From Mycobacterium sp. (GTDB lineage: Bacteria; Actinomycetota; Actinomycetes; Mycobacteriales; Mycobacteriaceae): 11,464 nucleotides of DNA. The DNA lies in the NCBI GenBank assembly GCA_023264755.1, contig JAHFVB010000100.1, forward strand, positions 1 through 11,464, in the 5' to 3' direction. Below, in pieces: positions 2,624 through 8,202 of this stretch. Position 1 is the first letter of the stretch, and the number at the start of each line of letters is the position of its first letter. A program made the translations under genes and the position numbers. The notes below the pieces were generated by a model. That model did no database searches. It was not told the DNA's origin and saw only the letters and a program-made list of their open reading frames with translations.

Positions 2624-2650
2624 GGAACCCTCGGGCCCGCTCACTCGTTG
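2624..2650 (+). promoter_or_regulatory. Probable ECF-sigma (SigE/SigH-type) promoter of the fxsA operon
   Basis: GGAAC at 2624-2628 and CGTTG at 2646-2650 are separated by 17 bp, matching the mycobacterial SigE/SigH pattern GGAAC-N16-18-CGTT. The expected start site falls about 7-9 bp after CGTT, that is on or next to the ATG at 2658, so the fxsA transcript should be leaderless or nearly so. No Shine-Dalgarno sequence is present, which agrees. The same element with the same spacing stands before rbpA at 7765-7791 on the other strand. I recall fxsA-region genes being listed among SigE-dependent genes in M. tuberculosis but cannot verify that here. Confidence 0.72.
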
Positions 2651-2657
2651 TCGCTTC

Positions 2658-3149
2658 ATGGCTAAGCGGCTTTTCGGGCTGTACCTGCTCGTCGAATTGG
2701 CGGCAGTGATTGCGCTTTCGTACACCATCGGTTTCGGCTGGACCGTGCTGTTGCTGCTAGGCACCGTTGCCGTCGGCCTGGCGGTGGCGGGCTCACAGTT
2801 GACGCGACAGGTGTCCCGGCTGAGGTCGGGGCTCGCCACGCCGCAGGCGGCCGCGACCGACGGCGTGCTCATCGCGCTCGGTTCGGTACTGACCATCGTG
2901 CCCGGTTTCGTCACTTCGGTGCTCGGGCTGCTGCTGCTTCTGCCGCCCACCCGGGTGGTCGCCCGCCCGGCCGTGGCGGCCCTGGCCGCTCGCGGGCTCG
3001 GCCGCGTGCCGCTGCTCGTCACCTCGACGGGGGCCTACCGCCCCGCCCGGCGTGACTACATCGACGGTGAGGTGCTGGACGTGACGGAGTACACCGTCGA
3101 CGTGGAGGCTCCGCGGCTTCCCGGCGCCCATTCCGGGCCGACCACCTAA
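2658..3149 (+). CDS. fxsA: FxsA family membrane protein
   Basis: A 163-residue inner-membrane protein of the FxsA family, named for E. coli FxsA, which when overproduced relieves exclusion of phage T7 by the F plasmid; its normal role is unknown. Three hydrophobic segments are visible: residues about 5-24 (with the family Glu at position 13), 28-45 and 70-95. The third contains the family signature PGFVTSVLGLLLLLPPTR (82-99). A hydrophilic tail of about 60 residues follows, with an acidic IDGEVLDV motif typical of actinobacterial members. The ATG at 2658 is chosen because it fits the family N terminus and lies directly after a SigE-like promoter. It is the first gene of a tight operon: the next start codon is 1 bp after its TAA. 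M. tuberculosis Rv2053c is the expected orthologue (recalled). Confidence 0.92.
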   Translation: MAKRLFGLYLLVELAAVIALSYTIGFGWTVLLLLGTVAVGLAVAGSQLTRQVSRLRSGLATPQAAATDGVLIALGSVLTIVPGFVTSVLGLLLLLPPTRVVARPAVAALAARGLGRVPLLVTSTGAYRPARRDYIDGEVLDVTEYTVDVEAPRLPGAHSGPTT

Positions 3150-3150
3150 C

Positions 3151-4764
3151 TTGACCACGCTGCTGGTCAATGGCCGGGTGCACACGCCCGTCATGCCGGA
3201 GGCGACCGCAATCGCGGTCTCCGACGGGCCGGACTCGACGGTGGTGTGGCTGGGCACCGACGACGTCGGACGCTGCGAGTTTCCGGACGCCAGGCTGATC
3301 GATCTCGAGGGCGCGTTCGTCGCCCCGGCCTTCGTGGACAGCCACGTCCACCTCACCGCAACCGGGCTGGCCATCGTCGGGCTCGACCTGCGGCGGGCGA
3401 CTTCCCTGGCACACCTGCTCCGACTGTTGGCCGAGTACTCGGCCAAGAATCCGGACGGTCCGGTCTGGGGCCACGGCTGGGATGAAGCGCAGTGGGCGAA
3501 CCCGACCCCGCCCACCACCGCCGAGCTGGACCAGGTGCTCGGGGGCCGGCCCGCCTACCTCGCCCGCGTCGACGTGCACTCCGCGGCCGCCAGCACCGCC
3601 ATGCGAGCGTTGGTCCCGGGCCTGGCCGCGGCCGACGGCTACGCCGCTGACCTTCCGCTGACGGCGCAGGCCCACCACCTGGTCAGGGCCGTGGCCCGCG
3701 AGTTGCTGACCCCCGCGCAACGCGATTTGGCGCGCGCCGAGGCGTTGGAACTGGCCGCCCGCTCGGGCATCGTCGCGGTGCACGAGTGTGCCGGGCCCGA
3801 CATCGGCGGAATCGACGACTGGCAAGCGGTGCGCGCGTTGAACCACGGCGTCGAGGTCGTCGGTTACTGGGGGGAGGCCGTCAGCACCCCCGAACGAGCT
3901 CGCGAGCTCGTGGAGCTCACCGGTACCCGCGGGTTGGCCGGCGATCTGTTCGTCGACGGAGCCCTCGGTTCGCGAACCGCCTGGCTGCACCAGCCCTACG
4001 CCGATCACCCCGACGGCTGTGGCAACTGCTATCTCGACGTCGACGCCATCGAAGCCCATCTCGGCGCGTGCACCGAAGCCGGAATCACCGCGGGCTTCCA
4101 CGTCATCGGTGACGCTGCGGTGTCCGCCGTCGTCGCCGCCATGGATCGCGTCGTCGCACGGTTTGGCTCCGCGGCGGTGGCGCGCTGTGGCCACCGGCTG
4201 GAGCACCTGGAGCTGGTCACCGCAGAACAGGCCGAACGGCTGGGCCGCTTCGGGGTGATCGCCAGCGTGCAGCCCAATTTCGACGCCCTGTGGGGTGGGG
4301 AACGAGGCATGTACGCCACCAGACTCGGTGCCGACCGGGCCCGCCGGCTCAATCCGTTGGCGCTGTTAGCATCCCAAGGCGTGCCACTCGCGTTGGGCTC
4401 GGATTCGCCCGTCACCACCATGAATCCGTGGGCGACCGTCCGTGCGGCCATCCGGCACCAGACGCAGGGCAGCGCGTTGTCCGCCCGCGCGGCGTTCGCT
4501 GCGGCCACCCGCGGGGCGTGGCGGGCAGGCGGTGTCCGCGACGGAATCAGCGGCACCCTGGTGCCCGGTGCACCGGCCTCCTATGCAGTGTGGGACGTGC
4601 CGGGCGGAGCAGATGGTTTGGTGGTGGCCGCGCCCGCCGATGGCGTCGAGCGGTGGTCCACCGATCCGCGAGCCCGAGTACCGGTACTGCCGCGGCTGGA
4701 ACTCGACGAGCCCCTGCCCACCTGCCGCCAGACCGTCCATCGCGGCGTCGTGCTCCATGGCTGA
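3151..4764 (+). CDS. Amidohydrolase family 3 (YtcJ/NfdA-like) metal-dependent hydrolase
   Basis: A 537-residue protein with the complete layout of the Amidohydro_3 (YtcJ/N-substituted formamide deformylase-like) group. An N-terminal beta-sandwich segment is followed by the metal-binding FVDSHVH (H65, H67), a GHGWDEAQW block, and [13 protein letters not shown], which is characteristic of this group in place of a carboxylated-Lys motif. Then come GFHVIGDAA (H317), GHRLEHLE (H348, H352) and the catalytic ALGSDSPV (D418), and finally the returning sandwich segment. All expected metal and catalytic residues are present, so it should be active, cytosolic and hydrolyse an amide, formamide or related bond; the substrate is unknown. 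The start is TTG at 3151, 1 bp after the fxsA stop, and no ATG or GTG fits the family N terminus better. The 3' end overlaps lnt by 8 bp. This coupling ties it to envelope biogenesis, though no role there is established. Confidence 0.9.
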
Positions 4765-6574
4765 CCAGAAGCGTCGGTATTGGTCACGTCCCACGGACGT
4801 CACCGATACCTTCCCGGCTGTCGGCGACGAGGGCGACGAGCTCGAGGACCTTGACCACCTCGACGAGCTCGAGCTCGGTGACGTCGACGACCCGCCCCAG
4901 CCCGCCTCGACCACGTCCCGCGCCGAACGGGTCGCGCGGGTGGCCGCCCGGGTTTGGCGGGTGCTCGAGCCGAGGGTGTGGCGCCTGACGGCGAGCGTTC
5001 TGGCGGGGCTCCTGGTGTGCGCCAGCTTCCCGCCGTTCGGCCGGTGGTACCTGGCCTTCGTCGCGTTCGCGCTGCTCGGCTGGGTGCTGACGAGGCCGAC
5101 GACGACCCGGGCCGGTGGCTTCGGGTACGGCTTCCTGTTCGGGCTGGCGTTCTACGTTCCCCTGTTGCCGTGGATCAGCGAACTAGTGGGCGCGGTGCCC
5201 TGGTTGGCGCTGGCGACGATGGAGGCCCTCTTCCCGGCCCTCTTCGGACTGCTCGCCGTCCTGGTGCGCAGCCTGCCCGGCTGGCCGGTGTGGTTCGCCG
5301 CGGTGTGGATGTCGTCGGAGTGGTTGAAGTCCGTCGTGCCGTTCGGCGGGTTCCCCTGGGGAGTGATCGGCTTCAGCCAAACCGACGGTCCACTGTTGGG
5401 ACTCGCTCACCTCGGCGGTGCTCCGCTGGTGTCGTTCGGGGTGGTACTGGTGAGCTTCAGTCTGCTCGCCGTCGGACTCGAGGTGCTGCGCGGCGCGCGG
5501 CGCGATCGGGCTGCTGGGGCGGTTCGGCCGGCGGCGGTGTTGGTGCCAGGGCTCTGCGTCGTCGCGGTGCTACTCACCGTCGCGCTGGTGAGTCCGCACC
5601 TGCGCAAGTCGGGAGCGGGCGCCAGCGACGATCCGCCGGTCACCGTGGCCGCGATTCAGGGCAACGTGCCCCGGCTCGGGCTGGAGTTCAACGCGCAGCG
5701 GCGGGCGGTCCTGGACAACCACGTGCGAGAGACGCTGCGGCTGGCCGACGACGTCCGGAACGGCCGCGCACCGCAACCCACCGTCGTGATCTGGCCGGAG
5801 AACTCCTCGGACATCGACCCGCTGGCCAATCCGGACGCGGCCAGTCAGATCTCGCTGGCCGCCAATGCGATACACGCGCCGATCTTGGTCGGGGCGGTGA
5901 TCGCCGCGCCTGACTACACCCGATCCGATCCCGCGGCTACCAACTCGGTGATCGTGTGGGACGGCGTCAACGGTCCTGGGGAACGCCACGACAAGAAGAT
6001 CATCCAGCCCTTCGGCGAGTACCTGCCGTGGCGCAGCTTCTTCAAGCATCTGTCGTCGTACGCGGACCGCGCGGGTTACTTCGTGCCCGGTTCCGGCGAC
6101 GGCGTGGTGCACGCCGGGGGCGTGCCCGTCGGCGTGACCACGTGTTGGGAGGTGATCTTCGATCGCGCGGCCCGCGAGTCGGTGCTCAACGGCGCGCAGC
6201 TGCTCGCCGTGCCGGCCAACAACGCGACGTTCGACGAGCCGATGAGCGCTCAGCAGCTGGCCTTCGCCCGGCTGCGCGCGGTCGAGCACGACCGGTACGT
6301 CGTCGTCGCGGGCACCACCGGGATCAGCGCGATGATCGCGCCGGACGGCCGGGTACTGGCCCGGACGGCCTTCTTCGAGCCGGCTTACCTCGACGCGCAG
6401 CTCCGGCTGAAGTCGGAGCTGACACCCGCGACGAAGTGGGATCCGATCGTCCAGGGACTACTCGTTTCGGTTGGTGTTGCGGCTGTGTTCGGGGCAATGC
6501 TGCACAATGGGAGCTTCGTGCGTCGCCGGGTAGGGCGGCCGAGCGGTAAGCGAAGGAGTGGCATGACCAGCTAG
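4757..6574 (+). CDS. lnt: Apolipoprotein N-acyltransferase Lnt
   Basis: A 605-residue membrane enzyme that adds the third acyl chain to the N-terminal Cys of lipoproteins after Lgt and LspA. Residues 1-70 are a cytosolic extension with an acidic run (24-45). Residues about 75-300 hold the hydrophobic helices, starting [19 protein letters not shown] periplasmic nitrilase-like domain follows, and a last helix near [18 protein letters not shown]. The nitrilase triad is intact: E348 in [10 protein letters not shown]413 in [14 protein letters not shown] and C463 in [14 protein letters not shown]. The ATG at 4757 overlaps the amidohydrolase TGA in ATGGCTGA; longer in-frame starts upstream run through that gene and give low-quality sequence. 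In M. tuberculosis Lnt and Ppm1 are one polypeptide (Rv2051c); in M. smegmatis, and here, they are separate genes. Known mycobacterial data show Lnt also anchors Ppm1 at the membrane. Confidence 0.96.
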
Positions 6575-6597
6575 CGAGAAGCGGAGCGGGATCGCGC

Positions 6598-7359
6598 ATG
6601 AATGAGGGTGCGGATCGCCCCAGCCTGCGCACGCTGGTCATCATTCCGACGTACAACGAGCGCGAGAACCTGCCGCTGATCGTCGGTCGGGTGCATGCGG
6701 CGCGTCCGGACGTCGACGTGTTGATCGTCGACGACGGCAGCCCCGACGGCACGGGGGAACTTGCCGACGAGCTCGCGCTGGCCGATCCCGACCGGGTGCA
6801 CGTGATGCATCGCGCCAGCAAGGCCGGGCTCGGCGCTGCTTACCTGGCCGGATTCCGCTGGGGGCTGGGCCGCGGTTACACGGTGCTGGTCGAGATGGAC
6901 GCCGACGGTAGTCACGCTCCCGAGGAGCTGTACCGGCTGCTCGATGCCGTCGACGCCGGTGCCGACCTGTCCATCGGGTCGCGCTACGTCGACGGCGGTA
7001 CCGTGCGGAACTGGCCACGGCGACGCAAGGTGTTGTCTCAGACCGCGAACGGCTACTCGCGGGTCATGCTGGGCGTTCAGATCCACGACATCACCGCGGG
7101 CTACCGCGCCTACCGGCGTGAGGTGCTCGAGAAGATCGAACTCGACACCGTCGACTCGAAGGGCTACTGCTTTCAGATCGAGATGACCTGGCGCACCATC
7201 ACCGCAGGGTTCACGGTCGTCGAAGTGCCCATCACGTTCACCGAGCGTGAGTTGGGCAAGTCGAAGATGAGCGGATCCAACATCCGGGAGGCCATCTTCA
7301 AGGTCGCCGAATGGGGCCTCCGGGGCCGCCTCGATCGCGCCCGCGGCGTGGCGCGCTAG
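6598..7359 (+). CDS. ppm1: Polyprenyl-monophosphomannose synthase Ppm1 (GT2 family)
   Basis: A 253-residue glycosyltransferase that moves mannose from GDP-mannose to polyprenyl phosphate on the cytoplasmic face of the membrane. The product feeds lipomannan/lipoarabinomannan elongation and protein O-mannosylation. The GT2 (dolichol-phosphate-mannose synthase) order is clear: [13 protein letters not shown] (14-26), [13 protein letters not shown] (41-53), the metal-binding EMDADGSH with D101 and D103, GSRYVDGG, then the acceptor-side [12 protein letters not shown] and [12 protein letters not shown], and the C-terminal [13 protein letters not shown]. It has no membrane helices, unlike some DPM synthases, which fits dependence on Lnt for membrane placement. 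The ATG at 6598 is the only usable start after an in-frame stop at 6547-6549. A weak GGAG (6583-6586) lies 11 nt before it, and reinitiation after lnt (23-bp gap) is likely. Confidence 0.95.
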
Positions 7360-7369
7360 CGAAGGCTAG
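7356..7369. terminator. Small hairpin across both stop codons of ppm1 and rbpA
   Basis: CTAGC (7356-7360) and GCTAG (7365-7369) form a perfect 5-bp stem with a GAAG loop. The TAG stop of ppm1 (7357-7359, plus strand) and of rbpA (7368-7366, minus strand) lie in opposite arms. There is no T-run on either side, and 5 bp is weak for an intrinsic terminator, so it may act only as a pause or 3'-end stabiliser. It is the only structure available between two genes whose stops are 6 bp apart. Confidence 0.35.
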
Positions 7370-7704
7370 TTGCCGCGCCTGCGGGTCTTGATGATGTCCA
7401 TCCGCTCCTTGAGCAGCTCTTCGAGCTCCTCGACGGAACGACGCTCGAGCAGCATGTCCCAGTGGGTACGCGGGGGCTTGACCTTCTTCGGCTCGGGGAG
7501 GTCACCGTCGATCAGGGTGCCTTCCATGCCGTTGCGGCACGGCCACGTGCCGGGGATCTCTGCGTCGTCGGCGAAGGGAACCTCGAACTCCTCGCCGTTG
7601 TCCGTCCGGTAGCGGGCCATCTGGCGCGGGGCCAGGTCGTGGTTACGGTCGGTCTCGTAGCTCACAGCTCCGAGTCGACTGCCCCTCAAGACGCGATCAG
7701 CCAT
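7366..7704 (-). CDS. rbpA: RNA polymerase-binding protein RbpA
   Basis: A 112-residue essential actinobacterial transcription factor that binds RNA polymerase and group 1/2 sigma factors (SigA, SigB) and stabilises the open promoter complex. The known domain order is seen: N-terminal tail (MADRVLRGSRLGAVSYE, 1-26), core domain (about 27-71, with GEEFEVPFADDAEIPGTW), basic linker KKVKPPR (73-79, with the DNA-contacting Arg79), and the helical sigma-interaction domain starting THWDMLLERRS. It ends in RRRGN. The ATG at 7704 is chosen over an in-frame GTG at 7713 because AGAGGAG (complement of 7714-7720) is correctly spaced for it and the known N terminus is MADRV. Transcription is expected from a SigE-like promoter about 55 nt upstream. 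It converges with ppm1 (6-bp gap) and diverges from the zinc-knuckle gene. Confidence 0.98.
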   Translation of the reverse strand: MADRVLRGSRLGAVSYETDRNHDLAPRQMARYRTDNGEEFEVPFADDAEIPGTWPCRNGMEGTLIDGDLPEPKKVKPPRTHWDMLLERRSVEELEELLKERMDIIKTRRRGN

Positions 7705-7713
7705 GGTCCACAC

Positions 7714-7720
7714 TCCTCTT
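7714..7720 (-). promoter_or_regulatory. Ribosome binding site deciding the rbpA start
   Basis: On the minus strand AAGAGGAG precedes the ATG at 7704 by about 8-9 nt. The alternative GTG at 7713-7711 would overlap this sequence, so it cannot be the start used with it. This is the best Shine-Dalgarno sequence before any gene start in the window. Confidence 0.75.
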
Positions 7721-7763
7721 CAAGCAATTCATGTCGGGTATTCACCCAGTTCATCCGGGAGAA

Positions 7764-7792
7764 TCAACGCAGCCAGCCGGTGCGAAGTTCCC
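7764..7792 (-). promoter_or_regulatory. Probable ECF-sigma (SigE/SigH-type) promoter of rbpA
   Basis: Read on the minus strand, GGGAAC (7792-7787) and CGTTGA (7769-7764) are separated by 17 bp, an excellent SigE/SigH-type element. A start near 7757-7759 gives a leader of about 55 nt with the strong ribosome site. The core GGAAC-N17-CGTTG is identical, including spacing, to the element before fxsA. In Streptomyces rbpA is controlled by the ECF factor SigR through a related element (established knowledge), which supports the reading. A vegetative promoter may exist as well but I could not identify one. Confidence 0.75.
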
Positions 7793-7834
7793 GACTCTGA
7801 CTCCATGATACCGGGGTAGTGCCTCGCGGCGGTT

Positions 7835-7840
7835 TACAGT
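7835..7840 (+). promoter_or_regulatory. Possible -10 element for a leaderless mRNA of the zinc-knuckle gene
   Basis: TACAGT fits TANNNT and lies 8 bp before the GTG at 7849. No -35 hexamer is recognisable and no ribosome site precedes the GTG. The intergenic region is shared with the divergent rbpA promoter. Confidence 0.4.
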
Positions 7841-7848
7841 CGGGACTC

Positions 7849-8202
7849 GTGACCACTGGTGTCGGCCGGCGGGGCCGAGTACGACGGCAAGCGCAACCCT
7901 GTCGCTGGTGCGGCCGTGAGGTTCCCGACGCCGGAGTCGGTCGTCGTCGGCAGTACTGCAGGCAGTCCTGCCGGCAACGTGCGTACGAGCAGCGCGCCCT
8001 GGTCAAGGGCACCTCGTTGCCGCCGGATTCGGTGGTCTTGACCGCTGCGGAGGCCGCGGAGCTCGCCGATCGGGTGTTCCAGGTGCGTTGCGCGGCCGAG
8101 GACGTGGCCACTGCGGTCGACGAAGGGGCCGCGGCGGCCGAGCTCCGCGAGCTGTGTGCGGCCCTGTTGAGCGCGGCGAAGGCGGCCGACGGCTGGCGTT
8201 AG
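7849..8202 (+). CDS. Small zinc-knuckle protein of unknown function
   Basis: A 117-residue basic protein I cannot assign to a named family with confidence. After an Arg-rich start it has CRWCGRE (C18, C21) and YCRQSCRQRAYEQR (C37, C41). This CxxC-x15-CxxxC arrangement is likely to bind one Zn(II) and resembles the CRxCGR...RRYCSxxCRxRAYR knuckle of many small actinobacterial proteins and of DUF2256/CGNR-type knuckles. The rest (about 60-117) is Ala/Glu-rich and predicted helical, LTAAEAAELADRVFQV onward. GTG at 7849 is preferred over GTG at 7819 because a -10-like TACAGT sits between them and residues encoded upstream look unconserved; with the longer start it would be 127 residues. It is divergent from rbpA, about 140 bp away. 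A nucleic-acid-binding or regulatory role is plausible but unproven. Confidence 0.7.
   Translation: MTTGVGRRGRVRRQAQPCRWCGREVPDAGVGRRRQYCRQSCRQRAYEQRALVKGTSLPPDSVVLTAAEAAELADRVFQVRCAAEDVATAVDEGAAAAELRELCAALLSAAKAADGWR

Follow-up and report, generated by a model that had tools for sequence, protein, structure and literature searches.

The 11.5 kb contig JAHFVB010000100.1 belongs to a mycobacterial genome of 4.75 Mb (636 contigs, 70% complete) and is analysed here in full as the window. It carries two candidate stress promoters, one upstream of fxsA and one upstream of rbpA, which encodes an RNA polymerase-binding protein. Pfam searches of the window proteins returned CobN, two PNPOx-like proteins, FxsA, Amidohydro_3, LNT_N with CN_hydrolase, a family 2 glycosyltransferase and RbpA. 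On the forward strand the gene for the membrane protein FxsA (2658..3149, PF04186) is followed, at intervals of 1, -8 and 23 nucleotides (nt), by an amidohydrolase gene with a TTG start (3151..4764, Amidohydro_3, PF07969), by the apolipoprotein N-acyltransferase gene lnt (4757..6574), which overlaps the end of the amidohydrolase gene, and by a gene for a polyprenol-phosphate mannosyltransferase-like protein (6598..7359, Glycos_transf_2) that we take, from gene order, to be ppm1. The rbpA gene (7366..7704, PF13397) lies on the reverse strand, convergent to ppm1, with the two stop codons 6 nt apart. The window RbpA scores 141.7 bits against PF13397, well over the cut-off of 25, and its top matches are mycobacterial, one from a Mycolicibacterium metagenome-assembled genome (MAG) reaching 96% among the best 80 of 568 relatives.

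Promoter elements upstream of fxsA and rbpA

The first-pass annotation of this DNA had marked a GGAAC-N17-CGTTG element before each of the two genes, and both were found where it placed them: GGAACCCTCGGGCCCGCTCACTCGTTG at 2624-2650 (+) before fxsA, with a -35 hexamer GGAACC at 2624-2629 and a -10 CGTT at 2646-2649, and GGAACTTCGCACCGGCTGGCTGCGTTG at 7791-7765 (-) before rbpA, with a -35 hexamer GGAACT that follows a G at 7792 and a -10 CGTT at 7769-7766. The core, described as identical, is so for the five -35 bases GGAAC but not for the sixth base of the hexamer, which is C at fxsA and T at rbpA. These are the only exact matches in the window, where 0.04 would be expected and where none of 200 dinucleotide shuffles gave two. 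A looser form of the motif (N16-18, CGTT) also occurs twice, with 0.28 expected, and since at least two matches appeared in 10 of the 200 shuffles, the pair within a single window is only moderately surprising. Likewise, the exact motif occurs nine times in the organism's own genome and six times when written backwards, so that the genome-wide count alone proves little. What is distinctive about these sites is their placement rather than their number. Leaving aside fxsA and rbpA, five other genes have one of the nine sites no more than 120 nt ahead of a start codon: sigE, dnaK, a thioredoxin gene, a DUF4193 gene and a small gene whose RecG_wedge match is weak and under the cut-off. The placement of the remaining two, one at an ABC transporter gene and one at a dehydrogenase gene, is doubtful.

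The decisive evidence for both sites is their conservation. We compared the window with the loci of the best 80 of 568 rbpA relatives in named records, counting 58 loci as mycobacterial and 23 as not, and looked for GGAAC-N16-18-CGTT up to 120 nt from fxsA and up to 160 nt from rbpA, with shuffles as the baseline. Of the mycobacterial loci, 45 of the 48 scorable ones have the fxsA box (shuffle mean 0.03) and 52 of all 58 the rbpA box (0.09); among the others the counts are 1 of 5 scorable loci for fxsA and 20 of 23 for rbpA (0.05). The two boxes occurred together in 44 of the 48 loci scorable for both. The scan of orthologous upstream regions proposed in the first-pass annotation thus found both boxes conserved. 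Four loci (L015, L016, L019 and L044) were counted as mycobacterial despite other titles; without them the counts are 44/47 for fxsA and 50/54 for rbpA. L015 and L019 are titled as Bifidobacterium breve MAGs and yet have a mycobacterium-like rbpA-ppm1-lnt order, so they look mislabelled or contaminated. The invariance of the boxes within aligned sets is a product of selecting loci and was not counted as evidence. The base before GGAAC at rbpA is G in 49/49 loci (2.0 bits), in a set picked for the core motif with N17 but unselected at this base. Three same-genus genomes (G006, G097 and G124) also encode a second, more distant RbpA-like protein with 72-74% identity.

The placement of each element relative to its gene agrees with the earlier description. 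At fxsA the ATG (2658) lies 8 nt past CGTT, and across the 45 loci with the motif an ATG or GTG start codon falls 8-9 nt past CGTT in every case, one of them having an extra in-frame GTG at 2 nt. The GGAAC-CGTT spacer is 17 in 25 of these loci and 18 in the other 20, so the start codon is fixed to the -10 element despite a varying spacer, which is the geometry of a leaderless gene. Leaderless transcripts are defined by a start codon about 0-3 nt from the transcript start (PMC8022548), and the fxsA transcript is, from this spacing, probably leaderless as the first-pass annotation had supposed. At rbpA the distance from the end of CGTT to the ATG (7704) is 61 nt, implying a leader of about 54 nt that includes a ribosome-binding site, AGAGGAG, at 7719-7713 (-), 8 nt upstream of the ATG.

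The two promoters had also been described as bracketing fxsA-ppm1 and rbpA, which they could switch on together in one response. Among 16 Rhodococcus/Nocardia-type loci, 15 had no ppm1 match in the flank examined and in the sixteenth ppm1 lay 4.9 kb away, and all 16 retain the rbpA box. The box is thus kept where ppm1 is not adjacent; the promoter does not depend on the bracket, which we reject as a functional unit. It is probable that the rbpA and fxsA promoters act separately and lie close together simply as a result of gene order, with no joint unit and no useful antisense effect. The stop-to-stop gap between ppm1 and rbpA is in keeping with this, being short but variable: it measures -44 to 124 nt in 57 of the 58 mycobacterial loci and 779 nt in the other. 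On the other side, the convergent ends lie within 124 nt in those 57 loci and a search of 7200-7900 gave no intrinsic terminator; together these make it likely that the 3' ends of the ppm1 and rbpA transcripts overlap.

Sigma factor class at base 6 of the -35 hexamer

The earlier description left the elements as SigE/SigH-type, and their extracytoplasmic function (ECF) character stood. The two sigma factors differ in their preference at position 6 of the -35 hexamer, SigE preferring a pyrimidine and SigH a purine, the SigH consensus being GGAAYR-N17-GTT (PMC4803200). For comparison within the same genomes we used trxB as a SigH-type control, as M. tuberculosis trxB2 is SigH-dependent, as are sigE and dnaK (PMC4803200), and htpX, a SigE target (PMC10100808), taken as the best Peptidase_M48 match. 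In 28 mycobacterial genomes rbpA has GGAACT in 26 and GGAACC in 2, and fxsA has GGAACC in 16, GGAACT in 11 and GGAATT in 1. The trxB control has GGAACA in 27 of these genomes, the remaining one being unscored (a gene fragment), and htpX has GGAACC in 15 and GGAACT in 1 of the 16 genomes searched. Across all genera searched, htpX has GGAACY in 26 of 26 loci with a motif; none was found at the Tsukamurella best match or at a second Nocardia copy, and an M48 match was absent from one Corynebacterium genome. In 16 non-mycobacterial genomes trxB has GGAACA in 11, GGAATG in 2 and no motif in 3. The larger mycobacterial set gave T in 46, C in 4 and G in 2 rbpA promoters, and C in 26, T in 18 and A in 1 of those at fxsA. 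With a pyrimidine at position 6 across the 28 genomes, set against A at trxB and a pyrimidine at htpX, both promoters fall in the SigE class rather than the SigH class, an assignment that the sequence comparison supports.

The window's own genome is consistent with this assignment. It encodes SigE, SigH and SigB (matches to PDB sequences at 4.7e-119, 4.8e-116 and 2.4e-186, respectively), and its exact sites before sigE, dnaK and the thioredoxin gene all carry A as base 6. The genome has eight matches to the SigE consensus given in PMC8022548, GGGAACY-N16-17-CGTT, three with N16 (control 1) and five with N17 (control 3). Two of the eight lie upstream of genes, one 37 nt before the ATG of sigB and the other at rbpA, and the other six apparently lie within coding frames. 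The sigE site, C61:3138-3164, is of the SigH type, lies 83-89 nt before in-frame sigE starts and also sits within a longer frame running into sigE; it may correspond to the SigH-dependent sigE promoter P3 of M. tuberculosis.

The best explanation of these data is that the window holds two conserved SigE-dependent promoters, one giving a probably leaderless fxsA transcript and the other acting as P2 of rbpA, a stress-inducible second promoter just downstream of a probable P1; we consider this very likely on the evidence of comparative sequence and of published orthologues. Several observations weigh against it. Ten of the 58 mycobacterial loci were not scorable for fxsA. The fxsA box was missed in L026 (where a GGAATT variant takes its place), L061 and L067, and the rbpA box in L015, L018, L019, L023, L041 and L064. 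The two mycobacterial rbpA promoters with G and the one fxsA promoter with A depart from the rule at position 6, and promoters read by both SigE and SigH exist (PMC4803200). While rbpA fits the full SigE consensus, fxsA reads AGGAACC, lacking the first G although its core and spacing fit. Motif counts, finally, are barely or somewhat above their backwards controls (9 versus 6, 3 versus 1 and 5 versus 3). In L061 (M. lepraemurium) and L067 (M. lepromatosis) fxsA aligns only in part, over residues 26-150 and 1-33, respectively, which, with the lost box, suggests decay.

That both sites are instead promoters of SigH, responding to thiol or heat stress, is improbable. Their core and spacing do fit the SigH consensus except at base 6, and rbpA is SigR-dependent in Streptomyces (PMC9205884). 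However, base 6 is C or T at both sites throughout the 28 mycobacterial genomes, C at fxsA and T at rbpA in the window itself, where SigH would favour a purine such as the A seen at every trxB with the motif in those genomes, and we reject SigH as the factor of both sites on this position. In addition, rbpA, Rv2050, Rv2051c and Rv2053c are absent from the main text, as distinct from the supplements, of the SigH regulon paper (PMC4803200). Chance matches without promoter function, which would fit the small genome-wide excess, are rejected as extremely improbable in view of conservation far above the shuffles, the fixed -10-to-start distance at fxsA and the published SigE dependence of orthologues (PMC8022548, PMC10100808, PMC10027907).

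A probable pair of rbpA promoters and a predicted SigE response

A conserved CCGGTATCAT lies upstream of rbpA P2. In the window it includes TATCAT at 7805..7810 (-), 13 nt upstream of GGAAC, which from its conservation is a probable housekeeping SigA-type -10 of a promoter P1. A GGTANN(A/C)T match was present within 45 nt upstream in 41 of the 52 mycobacterial loci having P2 (a raw count), and a close variant, CGTATCAT, in 5 of the 11 P2 loci lacking such a match. All six mycobacterial loci without P2 also have the GGTANN(A/C)T match, four of them with TATCAT itself. A strict sigma-70 scan of 7200-7900 reported no promoter, at TATCAT or elsewhere. Between the GGTANN(A/C)T match and GGAAC lie 13-14 nt in 21 loci, 18-23 in 6, 33-37 in 13 and 4 in one. 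At a gap of 13-14 nt, transcription from P1 would start just before the -35 of P2, and polymerases at the two promoters should therefore exclude each other. The gaps from TATCAT to the SigE -35 cluster near 14, 23 and 35 nt, about one helical turn apart, although few independent events underlie them. The widest gap is found mostly in species that we presume to be slow-growing. No start-site data for rbpA were found in the searched passages of PMC6529629 and PMC8022548.

SigE dependence of both genes is, in related species, a matter of print. The fxsA gene is among nine earlier-defined SigE units and has a primary start site in M. marinum (PMC8022548), rv2052c-rv2053c is directly SigE-regulated in M. 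tuberculosis (PMC10100808), and a review lists rbpA as a SigE regulon member (PMC10027907). For the M. tuberculosis orthologues, loss of expression in a sigE mutant is reported (PMC10100808, PMC10027907). Rv2053c is also induced by thioridazine (PMC2851646), and Rv2050 is overexpressed, together with sigE and clgR, in data sets on dormancy-like states and persisters (PMC6333855). The Rv2053c (fxsA)-Rv2052c unit has genes that are, by name and order, orthologous to those in the window, and its promoter is of the same class, and the mycobacterial SigE-dependent rbpA has the same gene and promoter class as the rbpA studied here. That rbpA was reportedly the subject of Hu et al. in 2016. The lnt and ppm1 genes are separate in the window, and a rough frame test has them separate in 52 of the 58 mycobacterial loci; in M. 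tuberculosis they form one fused gene. The SigH promoters of trxB2, sigE P3 and dnaK share GGAAC-N17-(C/T)GTT with the window sites but have A, not C or T, at position 6. The finding is thus real yet largely known for relatives, as these SigE targets have already been published in related species.

From these likenesses we infer that the two promoters function in the window species as well. Envelope damage would free SigE, which would raise the fxsA operon and rbpA together with sigB, whose matching promoter lies elsewhere in the genome. The fxsA transcript probably continues into the amidohydrolase gene and, less certainly, into lnt and ppm1; the unit named in M. tuberculosis ends at rv2052c (PMC10100808). 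RbpA would then aid the SigA and SigB holoenzymes, making a feed-forward loop that runs from SigE into the SigB/RbpA arm. Of the single envelope-stress response put forward in the first-pass annotation, the SigE class of both promoters and the published dependence of their orthologues thus remain, and the joint bracketed unit does not. Directly upstream of fxsA lie two tandem, overlapping genes of the PNPOx/F420-type oxidoreductase family (1805-2194 and 2187-2588), from which transcription could run into fxsA.

Promoter class in related genera

In Rhodococcus, Nocardia, Gordonia and Williamsia (L203-L219) fxsA is preceded by GGAG(A/C)-N17-CGTT in place of GGAACY. This variant was present in 17 of 20 non-mycobacterial loci with an fxsA match, Tsukamurella having GGAACC and two Corynebacterium loci neither. 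A stricter form, GGGAGMRA-N15-CGTTG, gave 14 matches in 10 non-mycobacterial genomes, of which fxsA accounted for 8, against 2 for the backwards control; in 4 mycobacterial genomes there was 1 match and 1 control. The idea that this pattern is the ordinary SigE reading in those genera was dropped, because htpX there keeps GGAACY and the variant is rare outside fxsA.

The rbpA promoter also changes among relatives. RbpA is essential and modulates SigA and SigB, and in Streptomyces coelicolor its gene has a promoter of the GGAA/GTT type under SigR, a SigH-like thiol-stress factor. Control by an ECF stress factor is therefore common to both groups, but at base 6 the mycobacterial promoters are SigE-like. 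Outside the family we searched 125 genomes and examined 45 rbpA loci, allowing the motif within 320 nt and asking only for GTT at -10. An ECF motif was found in 39 of the 45 (34/40, and 5/5 in a further set; shuffle mean 0.9, largest 4), with GGAATN in 27, GGAACR in 12 and GGAACY in none. The family itself was represented by 125 examined genomes out of 130 matched, plus 10 of the window's genus, giving 135 loci from 30 genera, of which 104 had the motif against 1.0 in shuffles. The window's genus has GGAACY in 18 of 18 loci, the window included. The 117 loci of other family genera comprise 51 with GGAACR, 27 with GGAACY, 8 with GGAATN and 31 with no motif; four genera with seven or eight loci are all purine (8/8, 8/8, 7/7 and 7/7), and some others are mixed. 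In the same genomes trxB and htpX keep their class, save for the two GGAATG at trxB outside mycobacteria. The rbpA promoter accordingly reads as SigR/SigH-like in most relatives with a box and as SigE-like in mycobacteria.

The simplest reading of this distribution puts rbpA originally under SigR/SigH and later, in mycobacteria, under SigE, with more than one change elsewhere. On this reading most of the order retained an ECF promoter at rbpA, but the -35 bases that select the sigma factor shifted. Whether RbpA thereby passed in mycobacteria from the thiol-stress response of SigR/SigH to the envelope response of SigE, with a SigE -35 near enough to a SigA-type -10 for the two polymerases to exclude each other, we judge to be evenly balanced. 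Three points count against such a handover: SigH may tolerate the C that Nocardia has at position 6, a G there may be read by both SigE and SigH, and one in four family loci outside the genus lacks a motif. As several genera are mixed at position 6, we do not claim one clean handover at the mycobacterial root. In the literature searched we came across no account of this change at base 6 of the rbpA promoter in relatives.

The comparison settles, at the level of sequence, the choice between SigE and SigH that the first-pass annotation had left open, and provides a one-base marker that separates trxB-type from htpX-type promoters in the mycobacteria examined. It also makes the idea of a regulon handover testable on natural promoters. 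Because RbpA acts on SigA and SigB, the stress that raises RbpA would decide how the main sigma factors are used.

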